Positions 264 through 32,965 of a stretch of 32,965 nt of DNA are shown here, one piece after another. Source of the DNA: Tepidanaerobacter sp. DTU063 (GTDB taxonomy: Bacteria > Bacillota > Thermosediminibacteria > Thermosediminibacterales > Tepidanaerobacteraceae); the NCBI GenBank assembly GCA_001512695.1, contig LFSJ01000123.1:1-32965 (forward strand), written 5' to 3'. The translations under genes were made by a program, and so were the position numbers. The notes beneath the pieces are model-generated. The model was not told where the DNA came from, did not search any database, and worked only from the letters and a program-made list of their open reading frames with translations. Positions within the stretch are counted from its first letter, which is position 1. Every line of letters starts with the position of its first letter.

Positions 264-1988
264 ATGATAAATGGGATTGCAGCATCGCCAGGAATAGAAA
301 TCGGGAAAGCCCATGTATTAAAAATCCAGGAAATCAATATAAGCACCGAGAACATCTCTAAAGACGACATAGATGGCGAAATAAAAAAGCTTGATGTAGC
401 TGTTGCTGCTTCTAAGGAGCAGCTTGAGCAAATTAAAGCAAAAGCTGAAAAAGAACTGGGTGCCGATAAGGCTGCAATTTTTGGCGCCCATTTAATGGTC
501 CTTGAAGATCCGGTGTTTTTGGATGAAGTTAAAACTAAAATTACGGAAGAATTGATTACTGCAGACAATGCGGTATCACAGGTTGTAAACAATTATATAG
601 AAATATTTTCAAATATGGAAGATGAATACATGAAGGAAAGGGCAGCCGATATCAAAGATGTTGGAGAAAGAATTGTAAAAAATATACTGGGGATTGCTGC
701 TGACAGCTTAACTTTTTCGGAAGAAGTCATAATTATAGCCAAAGATTTGACACCTTCAGATACCGCCCAGATGGACAAGGATAAAGTTCTTGCCTTTGCT
801 ACAGACATGGGTGGCCGAACTTCTCACACTGCGATTATGGCCAGGTCCCTGGAAATACCAGCAGTAGTTGGACTTGTCGATATAAGCGATAAAGTGAAGG
901 ATGGCGATACTGTAATTGTAGATGGCAACAAGGGAATTGTCTACATAAATCCAGATGAGTCTACTTTGAAAGAATACGAAGGATTAAAAAGAGAATACAT
1001 AGAGTATCGCAAAAAATTAAAAGAGTTAAAGGATTTACCGGCTGAGACCAGCGACAAATTGCGCAGAGTAGAACTTGCTGCCAATATTGGGACCCCTCGT
1101 GACGTGAAAGGTGCCCTTGAAAATGGTGCCGAAGGTGTTGGCCTCTACCGCACAGAGTTTTTATATATGGACAGGGATGCACTACCTAGCGAGGAGGAGC
1201 AGTTCGAAGCTTATAAAGAAGTAATAGAAAAAATGGCCCCCAGACCCATTATTATTAGGACACTTGACATTGGCGGTGATAAGAAACTTAATTACCTCGA
1301 TATGCCGGAAGAACTAAATCCTTTTTTAGGATGGCGCGCTATTCGCATGTGTCTTGACAGACCCCATATACTAAAAACCCAGCTTAGGGCCATATTGCGT
1401 GCTAGTGCTTACGGAAATGCCAAAATCATGTATCCGATGGTATCTGGATTGGATGAGATAAGAAGAGCCAATGCCATATTAAATGAGGCCAAAGAAGAGC
1501 TCAAAGCAGAAGGCATTCCATTTGATGAGGACCTTGAAGTGGGAATTATGGTAGAAATACCCTCCGCAGCTGTTATAGCGGATATTCTGGCTAAAGAGGT
1601 GGATTTCTTTAGCATCGGAACAAATGACCTTATTCAGTACACATTGGCAGTAGACCGAATGAATGAACATATCTCTCATTTGTATGAACCTTTACATCCT
1701 GCGGTCTTGCGGCTCATCAAAAATGTCATTGATGCTTCCCATAAGGCAGGTAAATGGACCGGGATGTGCGGTGAGATGGCGGGTGACACTTGGGCCACAG
1801 CTATCCTTCTAGGAATGGGCCTGGATGAATTCTCCATGAGCGCAGGTTCCATACCCCAGGTCAAAAACATAATACGCTCTCTAAGCTTTGAAAAGGCTAA
1901 ACAAATAGCAGAAAAAGCTCTCTCCATGGACGATCCGGAAGATATACGCAACATGGTGAAGGAAGAAATGGATAAGATAATAAATTGA
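264..1988 (+). CDS. ptsI: Phosphoenolpyruvate-protein phosphotransferase (PTS enzyme I)
   Basis: Enzyme I takes phosphate from PEP and passes it to HPr, the first step of the sugar phosphotransferase system in the cytoplasm. The product of 574 residues has the usual length. The N-terminus (INGIAASPGIEIGKA) is typical. The phosphohistidine motif GGRTSHTAIMAR places the catalytic His at residue 188, and the PEP-binding C-terminal barrel carries GVGLYRTEFLYM, GTNDLIQYTLAVDR and GMCGEMAG with the catalytic Cys at residue 502. I chose ATG 264 because AGAGGTGG (251-258) is spaced 5 bases upstream; an in-frame GTG at 255 lies inside that ribosome binding site. ptsH is not in the window. A terminator follows directly. 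Confidence 0.97.
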   Translation: MINGIAASPGIEIGKAHVLKIQEINISTENISKDDIDGEIKKLDVAVAASKEQLEQIKAKAEKELGADKAAIFGAHLMVLEDPVFLDEVKTKITEELITADNAVSQVVNNYIEIFSNMEDEYMKERAADIKDVGERIVKNILGIAADSLTFSEEVIIIAKDLTPSDTAQMDKDKVLAFATDMGGRTSHTAIMARSLEIPAVVGLVDISDKVKDGDTVIVDGNKGIVYINPDESTLKEYEGLKREYIEYRKKLKELKDLPAETSDKLRRVELAANIGTPRDVKGALENGAEGVGLYRTEFLYMDRDALPSEEEQFEAYKEVIEKMAPRPIIIRTLDIGGDKKLNYLDMPEELNPFLGWRAIRMCLDRPHILKTQLRAILRASAYGNAKIMYPMVSGLDEIRRANAILNEAKEELKAEGIPFDEDLEVGIMVEIPSAAVIADILAKEVDFFSIGTNDLIQYTLAVDRMNEHISHLYEPLHPAVLRLIKNVIDASHKAGKWTGMCGEMAGDTWATAILLGMGLDEFSMSAGSIPQVKNIIRSLSFEKAKQIAEKALSMDDPEDIRNMVKEEMDKIIN

Positions 1989-2000
1989 TTTAAACAAGTA

Positions 2001-2027
2001 GGCGGTATTAGACCGCCAATTTTTTTA
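2001..2027 (+). terminator. Rho-independent terminator after ptsI
   Basis: GGCGGT (2001-2006) pairs with ACCGCC (2012-2017) around a five-base loop, and a T-rich tract follows. It starts 12 bases after the ptsI stop codon. Confidence 0.85.
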
Positions 2028-2156
2028 TCTATGGGCCATCTTTCTTCCTTTACAGCAAAATCCGTTTTTCGATGCATTCAGATATATAATTCTACTGGCT
2101 ACCAATAAGAATAAAACCGCTTTTCTAAGGCCAACATAAACCTGAGGTGACTTTAA

Positions 2157-2339
2157 ATGAGGAAAAAACAGCCATCCACTGACCCAAATGAGAAACTAAA
2201 GATAGAAGCTGCCATGGAGCTGGGACTTTTGGAAAAGGCTCAGCTTTACGGTTGGGATAAATTAACGGCTCAAGAGACTGGAAAAATTGGTGCCATGGTA
2301 AAGAAAATGTTAAAACGCAAAGAAAAAACCACACCATAA
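2157..2339 (+). CDS. Minor alpha/beta-type small acid-soluble spore protein (SspF-like)
   Basis: These 60-residue proteins coat DNA in the dormant spore and protect it from UV and chemicals. The sequence follows the family pattern: an acidic-basic N-terminus, then LKIEAAMELGLLEKAQLYGW and, after a short linker, GKIGAMVKKMLKR. This matches the two conserved helices (E-x-A-x-E-L-G and G-x-x-V-K-x-M) joined by the Gly-Trp turn. The ATG has TGAGGTGA (2143-2150) six bases upstream. The gene stands alone between the ptsI terminator and the cobalamin riboswitch. It points to a spore-forming host. The assignment rests on pattern recognition; I could not run a profile search. Confidence 0.75.
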   Translation: MRKKQPSTDPNEKLKIEAAMELGLLEKAQLYGWDKLTAQETGKIGAMVKKMLKRKEKTTP

Positions 2340-2421
2340 TCTCACTTCAAAAATTTGCCTCAAATAATGGCCATTTAGGCTATCGCCGAGCAAACCCTGT
2401 GCCAACAGGACAAGACTTGCC

Positions 2422-2450
2422 TTGCACAAGCCAGCTAAGGAGTGTATAAT
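2422..2450 (+). promoter_or_regulatory. Sigma-A-type promoter of the B12 uptake operon
   Basis: TTGCAC (2422-2427), a 17-base spacer and TATAAT (2445-2450), with TG directly before the -10 box. Transcription would start near 2457, just before the riboswitch P1 stem. Confidence 0.7.
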
Positions 2451-2472
2451 AATATAAAATAAACAATATTTT

Positions 2473-2703
2473 AACAGGTGCCGAAAGGTTAAAAGGGAAT
2501 CAGGTGAAAATCCTGAGCGGTCCCGCCACTGTAATCGGGGATGAACTGCTGTACCACTGGGAAACCGGGAAGGGGCAGGGAATATGAACCGAGAGCCAGG
2601 AAACCTGCCTGTTAGAGAAGTACTGCTAGCCTTCGGAAGAAAGGAGGGTACTGTATTGGCTGAGAACCCGATTTTCCTGTAAGGAAGCGGGTTGTTTTAA
2701 TTT
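2473..2703 (+). ncRNA. Cobalamin (adenosylcobalamin) riboswitch with terminator expression platform
   Basis: The aptamer is closed by a P1 helix, AACAGG (2473-2478) with CCTGTT (2608-2613). It contains the conserved GCCACTG (2525-2531) and the B12 box GCCAGGAAACCTGCC (2595-2609), hallmarks of this class. Downstream, AACCCG (2665-2670) pairs with CGGGTT (2688-2693) with an inner TTCCT/AGGAA extension, followed by a T-rich tract: an intrinsic terminator. High coenzyme B12 should favour the terminator and switch off btuF, btuC and cobU. The known logic of the class and the gene content agree. Confidence 0.95.
2665..2703 (+). terminator. Riboswitch-controlled terminator before btuF
   Basis: Six-base-pair outer stem AACCCG/CGGGTT plus an inner TTCCT/AGGAA stem, then GTTTTAATTT. 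It lies 32 bases before the btuF start and is the expression platform of the cobalamin riboswitch. Confidence 0.85.
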
Positions 2704-2734
2704 ATGACCCATATTGAGAAAGGAAGAAACTCAA

Positions 2735-3697
2735 ATGTATAGTAAGACAAAAGCCATATGTCTGATTTTAATAATTTTTCTTACTGTTGTATTTACAATT
2801 GGATGTAACAAAGCGCCTGAAATAACGGAATCAAAAGAGAAAAACAATGTTTCCGAGAGTTACTTTCCATTGACACTTACCGACCAAATAGGTAGAGAGG
2901 TGACAATTGAAACACAGCCGGAGAGAATTATTTCACTGTCACCGGCCAACACAGAAATCTTGTACGCTTTAGGTCTTGAAGACAAAATCGTAGGCGTTAC
3001 AGACTACTGCGATTATCCAGAAGCCGTGACAACAAAAGAGAAAATAGGAGGATACGAAGATCCAAATATCGAAAAAATCATATCCCTAAAGCCGGATTTA
3101 ATATTTTCTACCGGTATATATCTAAAACCTGTGGAAGAACTGGAAAAATTGGGAGTTCCATCAGTTGCCATTGAACCTGGAGATATTGATGAAATGCTAG
3201 ATAGTATAGAACTTATAGGAAAAGCAACCGGACGGTATGAAGAAGCAAGGGCTATGGTTGGCGATTTAAGAGAAAGAATAAAAAAGATAGAGGATATGGT
3301 AGCCGATATTCCGTCGGACAATCGTCCCAAAGTTTTGTATGAATTGTGGCACACACCTATTTTTGTCGCAGGTCCTGGAACGTACGTGGATGATATAATC
3401 CAGAGAGCTGGCGGAGAAAACATAGCAAAAGATAGCGGCAAAGAGTATCCTGAGTACAGCCAGGAAATGATAGTAGCTAAAAACCCTGATATCATAGTTT
3501 TTTCTTACCATGGAACAGACGGGGGAGAAACAGTAGAGAGTATAATGAAGCGGCCGGGCTGGGATAGCATAAATGCAGTAAAGAACAAAAGAGTTTATTA
3601 TATCGATGAGAATTTGGTTCAAAGGGCAACTCCAAGACTTATAGACGGGCTTGAAGAATTTGTAAAAATCATACACCCGGATCTTTTTAAAGACTAA
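2735..3697 (+). CDS. btuF: Cobalamin ABC transporter substrate-binding lipoprotein
   Basis: Probably the extracytoplasmic corrinoid-binding lipoprotein of a BtuFCD-type importer. The 320-residue product starts with a signal peptide (hydrophobic residues 8-22) and a lipobox ending at Cys24 (TIGC). The mature part has the periplasmic-binding-protein-of-iron/B12 fold signatures: DQIGREVTI, PERIISLSPANTEILYALG, VVGVTDY-like VGVTDYCDYP, and a C-terminal VKNKRVYYID. ATG 2735 is preferred because AGGAAG (2721-2726) lies 8 bases upstream; the frame also opens at TTG 2714. It is the first gene after the cobalamin riboswitch, which argues for B12 rather than siderophore as ligand. A hairpin separates it from btuC. 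Confidence 0.9.
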   Translation: MYSKTKAICLILIIFLTVVFTIGCNKAPEITESKEKNNVSESYFPLTLTDQIGREVTIETQPERIISLSPANTEILYALGLEDKIVGVTDYCDYPEAVTTKEKIGGYEDPNIEKIISLKPDLIFSTGIYLKPVEELEKLGVPSVAIEPGDIDEMLDSIELIGKATGRYEEARAMVGDLRERIKKIEDMVADIPSDNRPKVLYELWHTPIFVAGPGTYVDDIIQRAGGENIAKDSGKEYPEYSQEMIVAKNPDIIVFSYHGTDGGETVESIMKRPGWDSINAVKNKRVYYIDENLVQRATPRLIDGLEEFVKIIHPDLFKD

Positions 3698-3723
3698 AGT
3701 CAAGGTCTTAGTGTTACCCAAGC

Positions 3724-3767
3724 TTCCCGGATCCGACGGGAACTCCTACTCCTGGTCGGATGGGGAA
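3724..3767 (+). repeat. Intercistronic hairpin between btuF and btuC
   Basis: TTCCC plus ATCCGAC (3724-3737) pair with GTCGGAT plus GGGAA (3755-3767), 12 base pairs with a small internal bulge and a 17-base loop. No T-run follows, so it is unlikely to be a strong terminator. It may stabilise or process the mRNA and set a different btuF to btuC ratio. Confidence 0.55.
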
Positions 3768-3788
3768 TCTTTCTTGAGGAGAAACATT

Positions 3789-4844
3789 ATGGCTGATAAT
3801 TTTCGAAAAAGTAAAGATCACAAAGTATATTCATTAGTAACAATTGGTATAGTCATGGGTTTAATTATATCTCTTGGAATAGGGTCTGTATATGTTCCGC
3901 CGAAGGAAATTGCAAAAATGTTGTTAAGCAAAATTCCCCTTTTGGGCAGCAAAATCACCAATGATTGGTCAAGTACCAATGAGGCAATTGTTCTTCAACT
4001 CCGGCTTCCCAGAGTTATTCTAGCCTTTTTAGTAGGGGCCCAGCTTTCAGCAGCAGGAGTCATATATCAAGGAGTTTTTCGAAATCCCATGGCCGATCCA
4101 TATATAATAGGTGCTTCCGCCGGAGCTTCTTTAGGAGCGGCCCTAGGAATCTTGTTTTTTCCCACCACTAAAATATTCGGAATAGGTTCAACGCCGGTCT
4201 TTGCTTTTATAGGTTCTGCAGGAACCGTATTTTTAGTTTACAGCCTTGCAAGTATAGGAGGGCGAACCTATTCTTCCACGTTACTTCTTTCAGGCGTTGC
4301 TGTTAGCAGTTTCTTGTCAGCTATTGTTTCCTTTTTTATGTATTTTAGTGATGGAAAACTCCACCATATATATTTTTGGCTTGTTGGTAGCTTTGCGTCA
4401 CAGGGATGGAATGAAATCTATATCAATTTTCCTTATGCCATTATAGGATTTCTTATGGCATACTGGAACTTAAGGTATCTTAATATACTTCAGTTGGGAG
4501 AGGAGACCGCATTTTTTACGGGAGTTGATACTGAGAGACTTAAAAAAGTCACCCTGTCAGCAGCAGCACTGCTTACAGCTTCTGCTGTGGCAGTCAGCGG
4601 AGTAATCGGCTTTGTCGGCCTAATTATTCCGCATATTACTCGAATGATTATTGGGCCTGATCACAGGCAGTTGTTTCCTCTATCCACATTGATCGGTGGA
4701 TTGTATTTAATGATGGCAGATACCGTTTCTAGGGTAATAATTGCTCCGACAGAACTACCCGTAGGAGTGCTTACAGCACTTTTCGGCGGTCCTTTCTTTA
4801 TTTACTTGCTCTTTCAAAAGAAAAACAAGGATTATAGACTATGA
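3789..4844 (+). CDS. btuC: Cobalamin ABC transporter permease (FecCD/BtuC family)
   Basis: Membrane channel subunit for corrinoid import. The 351-residue product has about ten hydrophobic segments and FecCD signatures: LRLPRVILAFLVGAQLSAAG, then NPMADPYIIGASAGASLGAA, a SGVIGFVGLIIPHITRMIIG loop that contacts the ATPase, and LPVGVLTALFGGPFFIYLL at the end. ATG 3789 has GAGGA (3776-3780) 8 bases upstream; an upstream in-frame GTG at 3711 would add an implausible hydrophilic stretch over the hairpin region. The stop overlaps an ATG at 4841 (ATGA), so cobU is probably translationally coupled. The expected ATPase gene btuD does not follow. Confidence 0.92.
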   Translation: MADNFRKSKDHKVYSLVTIGIVMGLIISLGIGSVYVPPKEIAKMLLSKIPLLGSKITNDWSSTNEAIVLQLRLPRVILAFLVGAQLSAAGVIYQGVFRNPMADPYIIGASAGASLGAALGILFFPTTKIFGIGSTPVFAFIGSAGTVFLVYSLASIGGRTYSSTLLLSGVAVSSFLSAIVSFFMYFSDGKLHHIYFWLVGSFASQGWNEIYINFPYAIIGFLMAYWNLRYLNILQLGEETAFFTGVDTERLKKVTLSAAALLTASAVAVSGVIGFVGLIIPHITRMIIGPDHRQLFPLSTLIGGLYLMMADTVSRVIIAPTELPVGVLTALFGGPFFIYLLFQKKNKDYRL

Positions 4845-24873: not shown

Positions 24874-25308
24874 TCATCTTTTGGTATGATGAATCAAGGC
24901 ATGCATTGCCAGTATATAGCCGTAAAAACCGAAACCGCAAATCTGACCTATGCACGCTCCGGCGGTAACGGATTTCTTTCTGAAGTCTTCCCTTGCATGT
25001 ACGTTGCTAAGATGGACTTCCACCGCCGGGATTTGAACTGCCTTTAATGCATCGTAGATGGCTATGCTGTAGTGGGTATATGCACCTGGATTTATGATTA
25101 TACCGTCATATTCACCTATCGCGCCGTGAATGAAATTGATAATTTCACCTTCAATATTGCTCTGGACGATGTCTAAAGAAACATCAAGTTCCTTTGACTT
25201 CTCATGCAGCAAAGCGCATATTTTCCCGTAATCCATCTTGCCGTAAATGTGAGTTTCCCTCAAGCCCAGCAGGTTGATATTGGGGCCGTTAATTATGAGT
25301 ATTTTCAT
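24874..25308 (-). CDS. aroQ: 3-dehydroquinate dehydratase, type II
   Basis: Third step of the shikimate pathway: 3-dehydroquinate to 3-dehydroshikimate. The 144-residue product has the type II signatures: LIINGPNINLLGLRE, the catalytic Tyr and lid in HIYGKMDY, IINPGAYTHYSIAIYDALKA, VEVHLSNVHAREDFRKKSVT with the catalytic His and lid Arg, and ICGFGFYGYILAM. The ATG overlaps the aroK stop (ATGA, 25305-25308), so translation is probably coupled. It is the last gene of the operon, followed by the bidirectional terminator. Confidence 0.96.
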   Translation of the reverse strand: MKILIINGPNINLLGLRETHIYGKMDYGKICALLHEKSKELDVSLDIVQSNIEGEIINFIHGAIGEYDGIIINPGAYTHYSIAIYDALKAVQIPAVEVHLSNVHAREDFRKKSVTAGACIGQICGFGFYGYILAMHALIHHTKR

Positions 25309-25823
25309 AACAAGTCCCTGTCCTCCAGCACATTTATTATTTGTTTTGTCGTATCCTCAATTCCTTTGAGGTTTAGAATTTCAAAATCGGAGTGTTTTTT
25401 ATAAAGGGATGATCTCTCTCGAAAGAGCTGGTATATCCTGTCAATGTCATTGGCAAGGAGAGGCCTGGTTGATATGTCTATATCTTTAACTATATCCTCT
25501 ATGGGGCGATTTATAAAAAACACAACACCCTTACGCTTTAAATTCACCATGTTCTGACTACAGAGAACCACTCCACCGCCCGTTGATATGACCATGTTTG
25601 TTTTTTGGCTCAGTTTTTCGACGGCAGTCCTTTCAAGGGCGCGAAAATGGCTTTCGCCTTTTTCGTCAAAGATATCTTTTATGCTTTTGCCTGCATTTTT
25701 TTCAATAAATTCATCCACATCGCAAAAATCCATACCGAGTCTTTCTGCCAAGATCTTTCCCACAGAGCTCTTTCCGGAGCCGGGCATTCCGATCAGCACA
25801 ATGTTAATGCCTTTTTGCCTCAA
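25305..25823 (-). CDS. aroK: Shikimate kinase
   Basis: Phosphorylates shikimate at O3 with ATP. The 172-residue product has Walker A (IGMPGSGKSSVGKILAERLG), the shikimate-binding DVDEFIEKNAGKSIKDIF and FRALE segments, the STGGGVV motif, the lid Arg in STRPLLAN and a terminal RSSLYKKHSDFEI. TTG 25823 is preferred because AAGGAG lies eight bases upstream; GTG 25829 overlaps the aroE stop as GTGA, but is only two bases from the ribosome binding site. Either way the gene is coupled to aroE, and its stop overlaps aroQ. Confidence 0.93.
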   Translation of the reverse strand: MRQKGINIVLIGMPGSGKSSVGKILAERLGMDFCDVDEFIEKNAGKSIKDIFDEKGESHFRALERTAVEKLSQKTNMVISTGGGVVLCSQNMVNLKRKGVVFFINRPIEDIVKDIDISTRPLLANDIDRIYQLFRERSSLYKKHSDFEILNLKGIEDTTKQIINVLEDRDLL

Positions 25824-25825
25824 GC

Positions 25826-26635
25826 TCACAACTCCTTTTCAACCTCGAGGAGAACCTCGTCTATTATATTTTTATCAATAGTAATTTTATTCCACAGTTC
25901 CTCAGCCTTAGCAGCCTGGCAAACCAGCATATCCATCCCGTTTACTGTATCCAAACCCAATTCTTGGGCCTTTTTTAATATAAGGGTTTGCTTAGGATTA
26001 TATACAATATCAACTACCACTTTAAACTGCTTTAGCTGAGCAGCTTCTACGGGACTCTCGTCAATATTGGGATACATGCCAACGGGAGTGCAGTTTACTA
26101 AAATATCCCCATCAATTGAATCAAGTTCTTTATATGTAATTATCCGAAAGTCCCTGTATTTCTCAATGGCTCTTTGGGGATCCCTGCTCACAAAGATCAA
26201 TTCTCTTATGCCCTTATCGAGGAGGTGCTGTGAAACTGCCCGGGAAGCGCCTCCCGTTCCCAAGACAGCGGCGACCTTGCCCTTTAATTCTATACCGTTG
26301 TATTCCAGGGCCATACCGAATCCAAAATAATCCGTATTGCTTCCGATTGCCTTGTTGTCAGCAATAGTTATGGTATTTACGGCACCAATTTTTTCGGCTT
26401 CCGGGGACAACTCGTCAAGGTATTCCATTATATCAATCTTATAGGGCATGGTCACGTTTGCACCTTTTATTCCCAAAACTTTCAATGCCCTTACCACATC
26501 CTTCAAATCCTCTCGCTTAACTTCAAAGAGATTATATGTCCCTAAAATACCGGTTTTTTTGAAAAACTTATCATGGATAATAGGTGATAGGCTGTGGCTC
26601 AAGTTTTCGCCTATAACACCGAAACTTTTGAACAT
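25826..26635 (-). CDS. aroE: Shikimate dehydrogenase (NADP+)
   Basis: Reduces 3-dehydroshikimate to shikimate. The 269-residue product starts FGVIGENLSHSLSPIIHDKF with the substrate Ser-x-Ser pair, then GANVTMPYKIDIMEYLDELS with the catalytic Lys, GAVNTI, the NTDYFGF Asp, the Rossmann loop VLGTGGASRAVSQHLLDKG with the NADP-binding VSRDPQR, and NCTPVGMYP. ATG 26635 has AAGGAGG upstream. It begins two bases after the chorismate mutase stop and ends next to the aroK start. Confidence 0.96.
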   Translation of the reverse strand: MFKSFGVIGENLSHSLSPIIHDKFFKKTGILGTYNLFEVKREDLKDVVRALKVLGIKGANVTMPYKIDIMEYLDELSPEAEKIGAVNTITIADNKAIGSNTDYFGFGMALEYNGIELKGKVAAVLGTGGASRAVSQHLLDKGIRELIFVSRDPQRAIEKYRDFRIITYKELDSIDGDILVNCTPVGMYPNIDESPVEAAQLKQFKVVVDIVYNPKQTLILKKAQELGLDTVNGMDMLVCQAAKAEELWNKITIDKNIIDEVLLEVEKEL

Positions 26636-26637
26636 AA

Positions 26638-26934
26638 TCAGTCCTCCTTTGATTTAATCCTATATTTATCAAACTCTCTGATTTGCACCTGCTTGCTTAG
26701 GTGCATCAGGGTTTTAAAGAACTCTATCAGTTCTGCTTCAAAACCCTTATTTTTCAATTTGGCAAGGTTTTTCTCTATGACCTCGGCTTCTCTCTTTTCG
26801 TTGAGTATCGGCAATCCGTTTTTCATCTTGTAGGAAGCAATCTTTAAAGCAATACTCATTCGCATTTCAAAAAGGTCCACCAGGCAGCTGTCAATATTAT
26901 CTATCTGCACTCTTAAACCCTCTAAACAGTCCAT
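26638..26934 (-). CDS. Chorismate mutase (AroQ-fold, monofunctional)
   Basis: Converts chorismate to prephenate, the branch point to Phe and Tyr. The product of 98 residues is an all-helical CM_2 domain: LRVQIDNIDSCLVDLFEMRM with the catalytic Arg, then IALKIASYKMKNGLPILNEK with the active-site Lys, REAEVIEKN, and a third helix FEAELIEFFKTLMHLSKQVQ. There is no fused dehydratase, dehydrogenase or DAHP synthase domain. ATG 26934 has AAAGGG nine bases upstream and lies inside the end of aroC (38-base overlap); ATG 26952 is an alternative. Paired with tyrA in the same operon, it commits chorismate to tyrosine; no prephenate dehydratase gene is in the window. Confidence 0.9.
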   Translation of the reverse strand: MDCLEGLRVQIDNIDSCLVDLFEMRMSIALKIASYKMKNGLPILNEKREAEVIEKNLAKLKNKGFEAELIEFFKTLMHLSKQVQIREFDKYRIKSKED

Positions 26935-28021
26935 GCTCACCATCCCTTTCAAAGAGTAAATCCAGAATTACCACTGCCGCTGCAGCTTCAACAGCAGGAA
27001 TAGCCCTCGGCACAATGCAGGGATCGTGCCTGCCCTTTACCATTATTGTAGTCTCCTGCATCTTCTGTATATCAACGGTTCCCTGGCTAATGCCAATCGA
27101 TGGGGTAGGCTTTATTGCAACCCTGAAGAGCAGGGGCATTCCTGTGGTAATGCCTCCTAGGATGCCGCCATTGTGGTTGGTGGAAGTTACAATTCTATCG
27201 CCTTCCAACACGAACTCATCATTTGCCTGGGAGCCTCTAAGCCTTGTAATGTCAAAACCTGATCCAAACTCTATACCTTTCACCGCCGGAATGGAAAATA
27301 GGGCATGGGCCATTCGGCTTTCAACACCGTCAAAAAAGGGGGAACCCAGGCCAGGCTCAAGGTTAATAACGATGGTCTCAATAATCCCACCGACGGAATC
27401 CTTTTCCTTTTTTGCATCAAGTATCAGCTCTTTCATCTTTTGGCCTGCCAGCGCATCCAGCACCGGAAAATCCGAATTTATTAGTTCCTTCAAGGCTTCT
27501 TCATCGATATTTATGCTGTCAAAGCTTTCATCACACACATCATGAATGCTCTTTATGTGACTTGCTATTATTATATTTTGCATCTTTAAAACCTGTTTTG
27601 CCACGGCCCCTGCAAAAACTAGGGGAGCCGTAAGCCTGCCGGAAAAATGACCCCCACCCCTGTAGTCATTAAAACCTCCATATTTGACAAAACCCGTGTA
27701 GTCAGCATGACCGGGCCTTGGAAGCAGTTTGAGTTCTTCATAATCCCGTGACTTAGTATCTCTATTAAAAATAACGGCGCTGAGGGGGCTGCCGGTAGTC
27801 CTGCCACAAAAATACCCGCTCAGTATTTCAAAGTCATCTTTTTCCTTTCTAGGCGTCGAAAATATGCTCTTTCCCGGCTGCCTTCTTGAAAGTTCCCCTT
27901 TTATGAAATCCATATCAAGCTCTATGCCGGCCGGCAAGCCGTCCAAGACTACACCAATGGCCTTGCCGTGTGACTCACCAAAAATAGAGATTTTAAACTT
28001 ATTGCCGAAGATGGAACTCAT
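26897..28021 (-). CDS. aroC: Chorismate synthase
   Basis: Makes chorismate from 5-enolpyruvylshikimate-3-phosphate using reduced FMN. The 374-residue product has the three family signatures: FKISIFGESHGKAIGVVLDG, LPRPGHADYTGFVKYGGFND followed by YRGGGHFSGR, and KGRHDPCIVPRAIPAVEAAA. ATG 28021 has GGAGG nine bases upstream. The gene starts 23 bases inside the end of aroA and ends 38 bases inside the chorismate mutase gene, so translation along the operon is tightly coupled. Confidence 0.97.
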   Translation of the reverse strand: MSSIFGNKFKISIFGESHGKAIGVVLDGLPAGIELDMDFIKGELSRRQPGKSIFSTPRKEKDDFEILSGYFCGRTTGSPLSAVIFNRDTKSRDYEELKLLPRPGHADYTGFVKYGGFNDYRGGGHFSGRLTAPLVFAGAVAKQVLKMQNIIIASHIKSIHDVCDESFDSINIDEEALKELINSDFPVLDALAGQKMKELILDAKKEKDSVGGIIETIVINLEPGLGSPFFDGVESRMAHALFSIPAVKGIEFGSGFDITRLRGSQANDEFVLEGDRIVTSTNHNGGILGGITTGMPLLFRVAIKPTPSIGISQGTVDIQKMQETTIMVKGRHDPCIVPRAIPAVEAAAAVVILDLLFERDGEHGLFRGFKSADR

Positions 28022-29300
28022 CGATTATACCTCCGAGCTTTCTAAAGTCATTCCAAAAATTGGGGTAGGATTTACCCACGGAATCACTGTTATTGATAAT
28101 AACGGGTTTTTTGCACCTAAGTGCCGCCACAGCGAGGGCCATGGCTATTCTGTGGTCATTCCAACTGTCTACAGCGCCGCCTTCCAGCATGTCCCGGCCG
28201 TAAATCTCAAGGCCATCGGGAGTCTCTGCAATCTTAGCACCAAGTTTGGATAGTTCCGTAGAAATTGCCTTTAAGCGATCCGATTCCTTTATCCTAAGTC
28301 TCCCGGCATTGATTATTCTCGTGGTGCCCTTGCTTAAAGCTCCGAGGACCGCCAAGGGGGGAACTAGATCCGGGCACTGGGACGCATCAATGGTTATGCC
28401 GAAAGTTTTAGATGAACGAGCAGTGACTGAGTTGTCCTTTACAACTAAATCAGCGCCCATTTCGGTCAAAATATCGATGATACATTTGTCACCCTGAAGT
28501 GAACCCGATTCCAGGTCATTGCATGTTATATTTCCGTTTAAAGTGCCGGCTACCAGCCCAAAAGCTGCCTGAGAGTAATCACCCTCAACACGACACCTCG
28601 CAGCCTTATATGATTGCTTTCCCTTTACCTTAAAGTATTCGTAATTGTGATTCTCGACCTCTATTGAAAAATCCTTTATGGTATCTATGGTAAGGTCTAT
28701 GTATCCCTTTGATTCAATAGGGGTAGTTATTATTATTTCCGAATCGCCGTCAAGGAGGGGCAGTGAAAATAGTAGTCCTGAGATGAATTGTGAACTTACA
28801 TTGCCCTTAACCTTAAATACGCCTGGCCTTAGTTTGCCTGAAAAAGTTATGGGAAGTCCTCCCGTCCTTGTATAATAGATTATGCCTTGACTTTCAAAAA
28901 TCCTGCAATATTCATCGAGGGGCCTTTGAGAAAGTCTGCCCCTTCCCGTAAATGTAATTTGTTTTCCGTCAAGCAAGGCAATCGGTATCAAAAATCTAAG
29001 GGTGGAGCCCGATTCGAAGCAGTCTACTGTTTGCTGCACAATTTCAGGATAGCCTTTGCCCTTAATGATTACATCATAGGTCTCAAGATTCGAATTGGCC
29101 TTGACATAACTTACTTTTGCTCCGAGGGCTTTGATGCCTTTTAAAGTAGCCAAAATATCATCGGAAAAATCAATGTTGCTGATGATGCTATCTCCGGCGG
29201 CAAGGGATGCGCAGATCAACATTCGATGGCTTATACTTTTGGATGGGGGAACTGTTATCCGGCCCTTTAATCCAGATGGAGTAATTTTTACGCATTTCAT
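27999..29300 (-). CDS. aroA: 3-phosphoshikimate 1-carboxyvinyltransferase (EPSP synthase)
   Basis: Transfers enolpyruvyl from PEP to shikimate-3-phosphate. The 433-residue product starts with the substrate motif GRITVPPSKSISHRMLICAS, then CFESGSTLRFLIPIALLDGK, GRLSQRPLDEYCR, KVKGNVSSQFISGLLFSLPL, RVEGDYSQAAFGL, LRIKESDRLKAISTELSKLG and SWNDHRIAMALAVAALR. The PEP-binding loop reads SGSTLRF instead of the NAGTAMR of class I enzymes. This variant loop is common in clostridial enzymes; its effect on inhibitor binding cannot be read from sequence. The ATG is 18 bases after the aroB stop, with CGAGGTG upstream. Confidence 0.96.
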   Translation of the reverse strand: MKCVKITPSGLKGRITVPPSKSISHRMLICASLAAGDSIISNIDFSDDILATLKGIKALGAKVSYVKANSNLETYDVIIKGKGYPEIVQQTVDCFESGSTLRFLIPIALLDGKQITFTGRGRLSQRPLDEYCRIFESQGIIYYTRTGGLPITFSGKLRPGVFKVKGNVSSQFISGLLFSLPLLDGDSEIIITTPIESKGYIDLTIDTIKDFSIEVENHNYEYFKVKGKQSYKAARCRVEGDYSQAAFGLVAGTLNGNITCNDLESGSLQGDKCIIDILTEMGADLVVKDNSVTARSSKTFGITIDASQCPDLVPPLAVLGALSKGTTRIINAGRLRIKESDRLKAISTELSKLGAKIAETPDGLEIYGRDMLEGGAVDSWNDHRIAMALAVAALRCKKPVIINNSDSVGKSYPNFWNDFRKLGGIIDEFHLRQ

Positions 29301-29318
29301 AAAAACACCTCGTAATTT

Positions 29319-30380
29319 TTATAGGAAAAACCTTGGAATTTCATCTTTATTGATATTTTTTATAAAGCCGTCACCTATTGAATTCAACAATACAATATCA
29401 ATGCTGTCGCCTTTATTTTTTTTATCCATGGCAATGACTTCAACAATCTCGGCTGCATTTCCTGCAGGCATCTCATAGGGGAGGCCGTACTTTGATAGTA
29501 CTTCTTTAAGCCTTTGACTGGTTCCGGGCTCGGTTAAACCCATGTCTTCACTGTTTTTGGTTACCCGATACATGCCTACTGCTACCGCTTCACCATGGGA
29601 GTATTTGGCATAATGATAATATTTTTCTATGGCATGGCCCAGGGTGTGGCCGAAGTTTAGCATCATTCTTGCTCCTTGGTCGGTTTCGTCCTCTTCAACA
29701 AATTTTTTCTTGATACTTAAACACTTGAAGATAATAGTTTCTATATTGTTAAGGAGCTCGTTTTTGTCAAACCCCGTAAGCTCTTCAAATAGCTGCCGAT
29801 CCTTGATACAACCGTACTTAATCACTTCAGCCATGCCATTACTGAATTCTCTCGCGTCAAGGGTATCCAAAAAGTCCGGGTCAATGAAAACTGCCTCGGG
29901 ATGGTAAAAACTGCCCACTAAATTTTTGCCTTGGGGCAGGTCAACTGCTACCTTGCCGCCTATACTGCTGTCAACCTGGGCAATCAGGGAAGTGGGAACC
30001 TGTACGTAAGGCATACCCCTCAAAAAGGATGACGCAGCAAATCCTCCCAAATCACCTACCACCCCGCCGCCTAAAGCTATGATGATGTCCCTGCGGGTAA
30101 TTCTTGACTTAACCAATCCTTCGAAAACATCGGCAAGGGTCGCCAGGGTTTTACTTTTTTCGCCTGGTTCGATGGCAATCACATCAGTTTCAAATCCCGC
30201 CGAATTTAGGACATTTAAGACCTGAGCTCCATAAATGCGACTTAGGTTTTTATCGGTAATTATTGCTACTCTTTTTGCAGAAGATAATCTTCTCAAAGAC
30301 TTGCCCAATTCCTTAATTATGCCTCGCTTGATATACACCGGATAATCCTTGTTTTTTAAATTTACCTGGAGAGTCTGCAT
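29319..30380 (-). CDS. aroB: 3-dehydroquinate synthase
   Basis: Second step of the pathway: cyclises DAHP to 3-dehydroquinate with NAD+ and a divalent metal. The 353-residue product has VAIITDKNLSRIYG, EPGEKSKTLATLADVFEGLV, IIALGGGVVGDLGGFAASSF, YVQVPTSLIAQVDSSIGGKV, NLVGSFYHPEAVFIDPDFL, the metal ligands in EVIKYG and MLNFGHTLGHAIEKY, and SHGEAVAVGM. ATG 30380 has GGAGGAAC (minus strand) 9-11 bases upstream, so the gene starts 68 bases inside tyrA. That is the longest overlap in this operon. Confidence 0.97.
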   Translation of the reverse strand: MQTLQVNLKNKDYPVYIKRGIIKELGKSLRRLSSAKRVAIITDKNLSRIYGAQVLNVLNSAGFETDVIAIEPGEKSKTLATLADVFEGLVKSRITRRDIIIALGGGVVGDLGGFAASSFLRGMPYVQVPTSLIAQVDSSIGGKVAVDLPQGKNLVGSFYHPEAVFIDPDFLDTLDAREFSNGMAEVIKYGCIKDRQLFEELTGFDKNELLNNIETIIFKCLSIKKKFVEEDETDQGARMMLNFGHTLGHAIEKYYHYAKYSHGEAVAVGMYRVTKNSEDMGLTEPGTSQRLKEVLSKYGLPYEMPAGNAAEIVEVIAMDKKNKGDSIDIVLLNSIGDGFIKNINKDEIPRFFL

Positions 30381-31233
30381 TTAAATCAAGTTCCTCCTTC
30401 AATTTCTGGGCCTTGGAGAAAAGCTCCCTTAAAGACACTGAATCGTTGCCGAGAATGGCTTTTTTGAATTCTTGCAGGTTTGATAGGAATATGTCAAGAT
30501 GTTTGACTACATAGCTGGCGTTTTCAAGCAGCAGCTCCGTCCATAAATCCCCGTTTATCCTGGCTACCCTTGTGACGTCCCGAAAGCTGCCGCCCGTGTA
30601 GATCGATGTATTTTCTATCATGGGATTTAGCACCAGGGATAAAGCCATGATGTGGGGCAGGTGACTGGTGAAGGCCACCATATCATCGTGCTGTTCAGGG
30701 CCCATCTCAACTACATTGGCAAAACCGATTTTAAAAAGCAGGTCTTTTAATAATGAGACATTAGCCCTTTTGCTTTTTGCCGAAGGAGTCATTATATAGT
30801 CGGCACCCTTGAAGATTTTTTCCGAAGCAAATTGAATTCCTTGAAATTCGTTTCCGGCCATGGGGTGGCCGCCGATAAAATCAATGTCATCCCTTAAAAT
30901 TGGAGATATCTCTCTGAAAATTAATCCTTTAAGCCCGGTGACATCGGTGACAATGGCGCCGGTTTTGAAGTGTCTCATGTTTTCCCTGATAAATTTCACT
31001 GCCGCTTTCGGATAGATGCAGACGAAGACCAAATCGGATTCTTGCAGCGGCTCTTTAGAGTCAGTGAAGCCTTTATTTATGATCCCGGACGCCATTGCCA
31101 AGTCCAGCGCATCTCTGTCAATATCAACTCCCCAAAGCTGTTTGGTTTTTATTTTTTTGCTAATCGCCATTGCCAGGGAGCCGCCTATGAGTCCAAGGCC
31201 CACTACTGTTATATTAAAGTCCGAGCAATCCAT
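30313..31233 (-). CDS. tyrA: Prephenate dehydrogenase
   Basis: Oxidises prephenate to 4-hydroxyphenylpyruvate, the last committed step to tyrosine. The 306-residue product has the Rossmann motif ITVVGLGLIGGSLAMAISKK, the acidic end of strand 2 in WGVDID, and the catalytic segments DFIGGHPMAGNEFQGIQFAS, DDMVAFTSHLPHIMALSLVL and FRDVTRVARINGDLWTELLL. It ends without the C-terminal ACT domain that many Bacillus enzymes carry, so feedback control by tyrosine at this enzyme is uncertain. The last 22 residues overlap aroB. ATG 31233 has AGGAGG upstream; aroF ends 12 bases before. Confidence 0.95.
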   Translation of the reverse strand: MDCSDFNITVVGLGLIGGSLAMAISKKIKTKQLWGVDIDRDALDLAMASGIINKGFTDSKEPLQESDLVFVCIYPKAAVKFIRENMRHFKTGAIVTDVTGLKGLIFREISPILRDDIDFIGGHPMAGNEFQGIQFASEKIFKGADYIMTPSAKSKRANVSLLKDLLFKIGFANVVEMGPEQHDDMVAFTSHLPHIMALSLVLNPMIENTSIYTGGSFRDVTRVARINGDLWTELLLENASYVVKHLDIFLSNLQEFKKAILGNDSVSLRELFSKAQKLKEELDLNADSPGKFKKQGLSGVYQARHN

Positions 31234-31244
31234 TTAAAAGCCTC

Positions 31245-32258
31245 CTAAAGCTTGCGATTGTGTATTCGAGCTATTTCCCTGACTCTGTCCATTAAGCGTT
31301 TGAAGTTTTCAGGTGTAACGGATTGATTGCCGTCACATAGGGCATTCTTAGGGTCATTGTGCACCTCTATCATTAACCCATCCGCTCCTACCGCTACTGC
31401 TGCCATGGCCAGGGGTTCAACCATCCACCAGATTCCCGAAGCATGACTGGGATCTACGATCACTGGAAGGTGGCTTAATTTCTTGATTACGGGCACGGCA
31501 CTTATGTCAAGGGTGTTTCTGGTGTAAGTTTCAAAGGTCCTGATGCCCCTCTCGCACAGAATTACATTTTCGTTTCCACCTGCCAGTATATATTCGGCTG
31601 CAGTTAAAAACTCTTCGATTGTGGCTGAAAGACCCCGCTTTAAAAGCACCGGCTTTCTCGTTTGACCGACTGCTTTTAAAAGGTCGAAATTCTGCATGTT
31701 TCTAGCGCCAATTTGGATGATGTCAACATCAGCTTCATACAGTTCAAGCTTATCCACTGACATCAATTCAACCACAATGGGCAATTTGGTCACTTCCTTG
31801 GCATACTTTAAATACTCAAGGCCTTCTTCCTTCAAGCCCTGGAAGCTGTATGGCGAAGTCCTGGGTTTAAAGGCACCGCCTCTTAAAAAACCTGCACCCG
31901 CCTTTTTTACTTCAATGGCCACCTCGGTTATCTGGGACTTGCTTTCTACCGAGCATGGACCTGCAATGATGGCCAGCTTCTCTCCGCCGATAGAGAGGCC
32001 GTTTACCGATATCACCGAGTTTTCGGGATGAAAGAGTCGGCTCACCCTTTTGTACGGTTCCTGGACGTGGATGACCTTTTCAACACCTTCCATCAGCTTA
32101 AAGCTTTCGGCATCCACGCTGCTTGTGTCACCGATCATGCCAATAATGTGATAGTTTACGCCTATAGCCTCACAAACTTCAAGGCCCAAGTCCAGGATTT
32201 TGTCTTTGACAGCATCTGCATCCCGGGCTTCACCATCTGTTCGCATTACAATTATCAT
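31245..32258 (-). CDS. aroF: 3-deoxy-7-phosphoheptulonate (DAHP) synthase, type I-beta with N-terminal regulatory domain
   Basis: First enzyme of the shikimate pathway: PEP plus erythrose-4-phosphate to DAHP. The 337-residue product has a ferredoxin-like N-terminal domain (residues 1-70, MIIVMRTDGEARDADAV), typical of allosteric forms, then the barrel with AIIAGPCSVESKSQI, GAGFLRGGAFKPRTSPYSFQ, IIQIGARNMQNFDLLKAVGQ, KPVLLKRGLSATIEEFLTAA, LCERGIRTFE and LPVIVDPSHASG. ATG 32258 has GGAGGTG six bases upstream; the frame is open to 32291, but that is next to the terminator. It is the first gene after the Phe/Tyr leader, so expression of the whole operon is set here. Confidence 0.96.
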   Translation of the reverse strand: MIIVMRTDGEARDADAVKDKILDLGLEVCEAIGVNYHIIGMIGDTSSVDAESFKLMEGVEKVIHVQEPYKRVSRLFHPENSVISVNGLSIGGEKLAIIAGPCSVESKSQITEVAIEVKKAGAGFLRGGAFKPRTSPYSFQGLKEEGLEYLKYAKEVTKLPIVVELMSVDKLELYEADVDIIQIGARNMQNFDLLKAVGQTRKPVLLKRGLSATIEEFLTAAEYILAGGNENVILCERGIRTFETYTRNTLDISAVPVIKKLSHLPVIVDPSHASGIWWMVEPLAMAAVAVGADGLMIEVHNDPKNALCDGNQSVTPENFKRLMDRVREIARIHNRKL

Positions 32259-32294
32259 TCTAAACACCTCCGCCATGAAAATATTTTGCATAAC

Positions 32295-32328
32295 AAAAAA
32301 GGGAATCTCCTCCAGTGAGATTCCCTTT
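32295..32328 (-). terminator. Attenuator terminator before aroF
   Basis: On the minus strand AAAGGGAATCTC (32328-32317) pairs with GAGATTCCCTTT (32309-32298), a 12-base-pair stem with a seven-base loop ending in six T's. It sits between the leader peptide stop and aroF, about 37 bases before the aroF start. Confidence 0.93.
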
Positions 32329-32380
32329 AGGTATACCTATACTAATGAGTTTTGGATAATTATGCGGTACTAAGGGTAAT
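32320..32380 (-). promoter_or_regulatory. Predicted antiterminator pairing in the aro leader
   Basis: The leader segment ATTACCCTTAG (32380-32370) can pair with CTAAAGGGAAT (32330-32320), giving ten base pairs with one bulged A on each side. The second segment includes most of the 5' arm of the terminator, so the two structures exclude each other. The peptide stop codon (32362-32360) lies eight bases past the first segment, so a ribosome at the stop would mask it and let the terminator form. Pairing was done by eye, without energies. Confidence 0.6.
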
Positions 32381-32539
32381 AATCCTCTTAATACCTCTAT
32401 CATTGAATCTGTTATAAACCTCACCGGAAGGAGGGCCTATTTTATTGCAGAACAAACAACCGCTAAAATAAAAGTAAAAATAGTAGCGGCTAAAGTTAAA
32501 GTATTGTCCTGCAAAGTTCCTTCCTGTGAGATTTTGCAT
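32360..32539 (-). CDS. Phe/Tyr-rich leader peptide of the aro operon
   Basis: A 59-residue open reading frame between the operon promoter and the attenuator. ATG 32539 has a strong GGAGGT (32553-32548) eight bases upstream, so it should be well translated. Residues 9-25 (FAGQYFNFSRYYFYFYF) contain 11 Phe/Tyr residues, seven of them consecutive (19-25), and there is no Trp. A CLFC pair and the polar tail GPPSGEVYNRFND, then RGIKRIITLSTA, follow. A hairpin (32484-32490 with 32459-32465) loops out the run of Tyr and Phe codons. Shortage of charged tRNA-Phe or tRNA-Tyr should stall the ribosome here. The tail brings the stop codon next to the antiterminator. The role is inferred from this architecture. 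Confidence 0.85.
   Translation of the reverse strand: MQNLTGRNFAGQYFNFSRYYFYFYFSGCLFCNKIGPPSGEVYNRFNDRGIKRIITLSTA
32459..32490 (-). promoter_or_regulatory. Candidate pause hairpin around the Tyr/Phe codon run
   Basis: On the minus strand GCCGCTA (32490-32484) pairs with TAGCGGT (32465-32459), seven base pairs including one G-U. The 18-base loop is made of the Tyr and Phe codons 20-25. It is positioned like the 1:2 pause stem of classical attenuators. Confidence 0.5.
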
Positions 32540-32582
32540 GTGCTTTGACCTCCGGGCAAGTTGTGTTTTTGGTATTTTTAAC

Positions 32583-32611
32583 ATTATATTTAATCGGGTA
32601 TTCTATGTCAA
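32583..32611 (-). promoter_or_regulatory. Consensus sigma-A promoter of the aro operon
   Basis: On the minus strand a perfect TTGACA (32611-32606), exactly 17 bases, and a perfect TATAAT (32588-32583). Transcription would start near 32576, about 37 bases before the leader peptide start. Confidence 0.92.
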
Positions 32612-32674: not shown

Positions 32675-32965
32675 TTAATCCCCGCAGTTGATTCTTTTTC
32701 CTTCAAGAAAACGGGCGATAATACTATCGGATTCACCGGTGTAGAGGAATTTTTGCAGCCTATCTTCCAGTGAAAACTCGAGAGTTTCCGGCAGTTTGTC
32801 ATCTACAACAATAGCATCAAAGGAAAAGCCCTTTTCGAAACTTCCTACTTTGCCGAAAAAGCTGCCTCCTCCTTTTGTCCCCAAATAAAAGGCTTCTGGG
32901 CTGCTGAGTGGTTTTACATTCGGTTCAAAAAAACATCTGATCTTTGAAAGCTGAATCGCCCGCAC
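32675..32965 (-). CDS. guaD: Guanine deaminase, C-terminal part (partial, 5' end outside window)
   Basis: Guanine deaminase turns guanine into xanthine in purine salvage. The 96 visible residues match the C-terminal end of the amidohydrolase: AIQLSKIRCFFEPN, LSSPEAFYLGTKGGGSFFGK, VGSFEKGFSFDAIVVDD and a terminal LEDRLQKFLYTGESDSIIAR. The frame runs past the window edge, so the GTG at 32965 is probably not the start; the metal-binding HxH and active-site residues would be outside. Its stop is about 60 bases upstream of the aro promoter on the same strand, with only a weak hairpin between (near 32650-32680). Confidence 0.85.
   Translation of the reverse strand: MRAIQLSKIRCFFEPNVKPLSSPEAFYLGTKGGGSFFGKVGSFEKGFSFDAIVVDDKLPETLEFSLEDRLQKFLYTGESDSIIARFLEGKRINCGD

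Follow-up and report, generated by a model that had tools for sequence, protein, structure and literature searches.

The window, meaning the whole 32,965-nt stretch of DNA from Tepidanaerobacter sp. DTU063 that was analysed, carries a nine-gene operon of aromatic biosynthesis on its minus strand. The gene aroF is followed by eight genes that span 24874..31233 on the same strand, in agreement with the first-pass annotation, which had proposed that one leader governs nine genes from DAHP synthase to prephenate dehydrogenase. The genes, in the order of transcription, are:

31245..32258, minus strand: aroF, DAHP synthase (TIGR01361/NF006421), first gene of the operon
30313-31233, minus strand: tyrA
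29319-30380, minus strand: aroB
27999-29300, minus strand: aroA
26897-28021, minus strand: aroC
26638-26952, minus strand: chorismate mutase
25826-26635, minus strand: aroE
25305-25829, minus strand: aroK
24874-25308, minus strand: aroQ

The start codon of aroF is probably the ATG at 32258 rather than that at 32291, because 32258 is preceded by GGAGG, homologues begin with MIIVM..., and 32291 lies directly behind the T-tract of a terminator. Upstream on the same contig, just past the end of the window, lies pheA, which encodes an ACT domain. It is separated from the aro operon by an amidohydrolase gene, the 3' part of which occupies 32675-32965 of the window. The locus with pheA and then the amidohydrolase gene is at 1676-3830, minus strand, in the numbering of its own stretch. 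A T-box or leader was sought upstream of this pheA, and none was found. At 2459-2626 on the plus strand, the window contains a Cobalamin riboswitch (111.9 bits).

Codon run and alternative pairings of the leader

The region upstream of aroF contains the following elements, listed from the promoter to the terminator:

32583..32611, minus strand: sigma-70-type promoter TTGACA-17 nt-TATAAT, predicted from its match to the consensus at 12 of 12 positions
ATG 32539 to TAA 32360, minus strand: leader peptide frame of 59 amino acids, MQNLTGRNFAGQYFNFSRYYFYFYFSGCLFCNKIGPPSGEVYNRFNDRGIKRIITLSTA, kept in the same genus and family
32515..32539, minus strand: segment 1 (codons 1-8), partner of segment 2 (minimum free energy fold, 1:2 duplex, cross-locus permutation test)
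32457..32492, minus strand: core hairpin TAGCCGCTA...TAGCGGTTG around the Tyr/Phe run (covariation in 38 loci)
32415..32440, minus strand: segment 2 (about codons 34-42), partner of segment 1 or segment 3 (fold, duplex energies, comparison with Clostridium)
32310..32328, minus strand: segment 3, the 5' arm and loop of the terminator, which pairs with segment 2 as antiterminator (2:3 duplex, cross-locus test)
32298..32328, minus strand: intrinsic terminator (3:4) of 12 base pairs with a loop of 7, followed by a T-tract (-17.2 kcal/mol)

The ATG of the leader frame is preceded by a GGAGG Shine-Dalgarno (SD) sequence positioned 10 nt upstream. Phe and Tyr codons occupy positions 9, 13, 14, 16, and 19-25 of the frame, which amounts to 11 of the 17 residues from 9 to 25 and includes an unbroken run of seven. 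The promoter, the well-initiated frame, the codon counts, and the 12-base-pair terminator before the first gene had all been named in the first-pass annotation, and each was confirmed upon re-examination. Such a run is not expected to arise at random: in 5000 dinucleotide shuffles of the 400 nt upstream, an SD-preceded frame with seven Phe/Tyr codons out of ten never appeared. The leader RNA folds with a z-score of -4.6. From the stop codon of the frame, at 32362-32360, it is 31 nt downstream to the terminator and about 55 nt back to segment 2.

The antiterminator escaped the first-pass annotation, which had recognized the frame and the terminator, and was found in the present analysis. The 5' arm of the terminator, GGGAATCTCACTGGAGG, is nearly copied at the start of the frame, AAAATCTCACAGGAAGG, and codons 35-41, CCTCCTTCCGGTGAGGTTT, are complementary to both of them. 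Thus, segment 2 can form either the 1:2 protector duplex (-24.3 kcal/mol) or the 2:3 antiterminator (-27.2 kcal/mol), and these two pairings are mutually exclusive. A 2:3 pairing of equal quality occurred in only 2 of 1000 shuffles of the leader. As far as can be read from the sequence, the 1:2, 2:3, and 3:4 arrangement follows the textbook pattern for leader-peptide attenuators.

Conservation and covariation among relatives

The upstream regions of aroF from 98 loci of Clostridia and relatives were compared. An SD-led frame with at least six Phe/Tyr codons out of ten is present in 45 of them, with none on the opposite strand and 0.3 expected from shuffles. In almost all the leader-bearing loci, a terminator is positioned 20-160 nt before aroF. 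The leaders from the same genus and family can be aligned along their length. A profile built from 32 leaders was used to search 299 genomes of the phylum with no use of aroF, and 14 of the 15 matches with E<1e-3 were located directly upstream of aroF, several of the matched genomes having themselves supplied rows to the profile. The profile identified no further leader of this type in the genome of DTU063, where it is present in a single copy. Carriers include species of Clostridium, Pelosinus, Sporomusa, Gracilibacter, and Candidatus Petromonas, as well as metagenome-assembled genomes (MAGs) assigned to Synergistaceae and Acholeplasmataceae. The comparison indicates that the leader recurs widely in front of aroF, in Clostridia and Negativicutes as well as in some further groups, and is not an isolated case. 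The first-pass annotation had suggested a search for the frame and terminator in relatives as a check and had named a lack of conservation of the codon run there as grounds for refutation; the codon run, the terminator, and the antiterminator are conserved and covary.

In the window, the aromatic signal would be Phe and Tyr only. However, many relatives also have a Trp codon in the core (17 of 32 rows at one column), and the signal of the wider family appears to be aromatic amino acids in general.

The pairings were examined at the level of RNA. For most relatives taken singly, a simple duplex z-score of the terminator arm against shuffled leaders did not reach significance, and a cross-locus permutation test was therefore used. 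Pairing of the terminator arm is better with the leader of its own locus than with those of other loci (mean 19.1 versus 15.4; 0 of 20000 permutations), and the result holds when the family of the window is removed. The test was likewise positive for segment 1. Taken alone, it was not significant inside the family of the window (p 0.30) or in the TGAG class (p 0.13), since the sequences in these groups are too alike. In Clostridium, the RNA of segment 2, TAATGAGT, encodes S-N-E or L-M-S, depending on the leader, and in two leaders it follows the stop codon, which argues that it is conserved as RNA and not as peptide.

The peptide core S-W-G-F-Y-F-S-A-G-Y is specified by nearly fixed codons, and its RNA forms a hairpin with the aromatic codons in the loop. 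Conserved non-aromatic residues also have near-fixed codons (AGC in 27 of 28, GGC in 19 of 19, and AAA in 28 of 28). Among 38 loci with 29 distinct outer helices, 173 of 203 cells of the core hairpin are paired, compared to a permutation mean of 159.4 (0 of 20000 as high), although folding was used to locate the hairpins, and the resulting bias towards pairing is only partly corrected by the cross-locus permutation. The changes occur on both sides of the helix, for example CG, UG, UA, and AU at one pair. The core hairpin occupies the position of the 1:2 pause hairpin of trpL and, by analogy, may serve in pausing. Comparative analysis of the sequences thus establishes the parts of the leader, their conservation, and the covariation of their pairings.

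Several loci lie at the margins of this survey. Leaders of the same type upstream of aroF in Sporomusa (MMLTTAKLYQHEYFFFFAWANFFSAGFFK...) and in an Acholeplasmataceae MAG (MKNSSRNWAVAYAFTYNQGYYFSAWYFVLGKQ...) were missed by the SD filter. A divergent class of short leaders (n=3, Oscillospiraceae/Lachnospiraceae-type loci) has Phe-Cys-Cys codons just behind the aromatic run, and these are complementary to either the arm or the loop of the terminator, as in TTTGCTGTG with CACAGCAAA. A contig from a 'Spirochaetaceae' MAG carries a leader and an AroF that are nearly those of Clostridium frigoris/lacusfryxellense, and the contig is therefore probably mis-binned.

Ribosome position and alternative explanations

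The leader is very probably a classical ribosome-mediated Phe/Tyr transcription attenuator, as had been proposed; this mechanism best explains the codon run, terminator, and antiterminator. Transcription would start from the consensus promoter, and the leader frame would be translated during synthesis. A shortage of charged tRNA-Phe or tRNA-Tyr would stall the ribosome in codons 9-25, where it would prevent the capture of segment 2 by segment 1 and the core hairpin. As the 5' arm of the terminator emerges, the free segment 2 could pair with it to form the 2:3 antiterminator, and the polymerase would continue into all nine genes, from aroF to aroQ. With both charged tRNAs plentiful, the ribosome would continue beyond codon 33, traverse segment 2, and reach the stop codon. 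Segment 2 would be covered, or recaptured by segment 1, and the 3:4 terminator would stop transcription before aroF. Because the stop codon is so far behind segment 2, that segment is not covered by a ribosome that has reached the stop codon, in contrast to trpL. We infer both the termination in the cell and the direction of this response.

The mechanism was modelled by folding with a ribosome footprint of 30 nt and with pairing across the ribosome barred. With the A site at any codon from 9 to 25, the probability of the antiterminator is 0.93-0.99 and that of the terminator is 0.01-0.07, whereas with the A site from codon 36 on, the terminator probability is 1.00. When folded without a ribosome, the leader forms the 1:2 pairing and the terminator. 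If pairing across the ribosome is allowed, 1:2 re-forms around stalls at codons 13-25 and the terminator wins. The model therefore needs segment 1 to be blocked by the ribosome or by a following one at the start codon.

In equilibrium folds of the complete leaders of 47 relatives, the terminator forms almost everywhere, whatever the position of the ribosome. The finished terminator is more stable at equilibrium than the antiterminator in most relatives, and the antiterminator there must therefore act kinetically, while the terminator is still incomplete. Since equilibrium folds are insensitive to ribosome position, truncated transcripts were folded to imitate co-transcriptional folding. The probability that segment 3 is paired upstream is 0.94 when a ribosome is stalled and 0.68 when there is no ribosome (p about 2e-9); this is the fair comparison, as that between stalled and stop-codon ribosomes is biased towards the stall.

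The same RNA switch could be set by a nascent-chain arrest peptide similar to TnaC, with or without a bound aromatic amino acid. The core F-S-x-G-Y-x-x-C-K-K is conserved beyond its aromatic residues across Clostridia, Negativicutes, and Peptococcaceae, as would be expected of such a peptide. However, the near-fixed codons of the non-aromatic residues and their location within a covarying hairpin indicate that RNA pairing explains most of this conservation, and leaders outside the core clade have aromatic codons but lack the motif. We therefore consider peptide arrest improbable. It is more doubtful still that the leader is another RNA element, such as a T-box, a riboswitch, or a protein-bound leader, in which the Phe/Tyr frame is incidental. 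The genome of DTU063 has about 17 T-boxes (RF00230), 13 of them above the Rfam cut-off, and genomes of the same family control pheA-aroF by T-boxes. However, an Rfam search of the window leader that covered T-box RF00230, Phe_leader, Trp_leader, and riboswitches returned nothing, even at permissive thresholds, and the Phe/Tyr run, which shuffling does not yield, is in frame with a start codon and SD sequence in many relatives.

The promoter, SD sequence, frame, and terminator are also those of a small gene, and the frame could encode a functional protein, for example a membrane peptide, with the hairpin as an ordinary gene end. This explanation is hard to credit. Outside the aromatic core, the frame is free to vary in length and sequence; segment 2 is read in different frames in different species, and covariation links the interior of the frame to the terminator arm. 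Moreover, the frame is located directly upstream of aroF and has no match in Pfam or NCBIfam. Ribosome-mediated attenuation is thus retained as the preferred explanation.

Relation to known leaders and exchange with T-boxes

Leader-peptide attenuation is classical in enteric bacteria, where it is known from trpL, pheL of pheA, and pheM of pheST. These attenuators consist of a short translated leader with a run of codons for the regulated amino acid, alternative 1:2, 2:3, and 3:4 pairings, and a terminator before the first gene. The window leader has the codon run, alternative pairings, and terminator in common with them. However, it is 59 codons long rather than about 15, mixes Phe and Tyr codons (and Trp codons in relatives), and has no match to any leader family in Rfam. 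Its aromatic codons are inside a covarying hairpin, its stop codon is far behind segment 2, and it precedes genes of the common shikimate pathway in a Firmicute. T-box leaders also sense tRNA charging and control a terminator, but they bind tRNA directly, without translation.

Classical amino-acid leader peptides have been reported from Firmicutes: Bacillus has a His leader at hisS/hisZ (PMC2965389), and Staphylococcus aureus has an ilv leader rich in Leu (PMC5794164). Both concern other amino acids and other genes than the window leader. Phe/Tyr-codon uORFs upstream of shikimate genes were proposed from comparative analysis by Stav et al. 2019 (PMC6429828, Fig. 6b), in genomes that, to judge from the figure legend, included Clostridium novyi and Thermovirga lienii. 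The uORFC-13-1 motif (PMC8632094, 2021) has 24 representatives from Acholeplasma and environmental DNA, exclusively upstream of aroF, and combines a Phe-codon uORF with a terminator as in the family of the window. However, the motif was reported as limited to Acholeplasma and unknown organisms, and the text describing it gives no Tyr codons or antiterminator. The Acholeplasmataceae MAG mentioned above carries a leader of the type of the window family. The window leader family very probably overlaps with the uORFs of these two surveys. The first-pass annotation had presented the leader as unusual for Firmicutes, in which T-box or TRAP control was considered the rule. The mechanism that it proposed is supported, but the novelty is reduced by the earlier computational proposals (PMC6429828, PMC8632094). 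The present analysis adds an explicit antiterminator, a covarying hairpin that bears the codons, a view of how widely the family is distributed, and its exchange with T-boxes.

Four genomes of the same family lack the leader and have a T-box upstream of a pheA-aroF operon. In a tree of AroF sequences, the proteins of these four genomes fall among those of order-mates and apart from the leader-bearing AroF of the window. The distribution of the leader over this tree is clustered, requiring 13 changes versus 37 in shuffles. The simplest reading of this one gene tree is that the aro operon of the window arrived together with its leader from another Bacillota lineage. We would give an even chance to a broader proposal, that the leaders form one so-far-unclassified family of structured attenuators, inherited with one aroF lineage (Clostridia, Negativicutes, Synergistaceae, and Acholeplasmataceae) and with the aromatic codons in the loop of a covarying hairpin, which was transferred as a cassette of operon and leader to families where pheA-aroF is otherwise under the control of a T-box.

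The analysis indicates that Clostridia and their relatives appear to control the entry to aromatic biosynthesis by reading Phe and Tyr codons, not by T-boxes. In the window, codon reading would govern the whole nine-gene operon despite the many T-boxes in the same genome, which makes these genes a clear natural example of the replacement of one sensing device by another. The leader may provide a ready reporter of Phe/Tyr limitation in anaerobes, and the about fifty leaders with covarying hairpins may be used as the basis for a formal RNA family.
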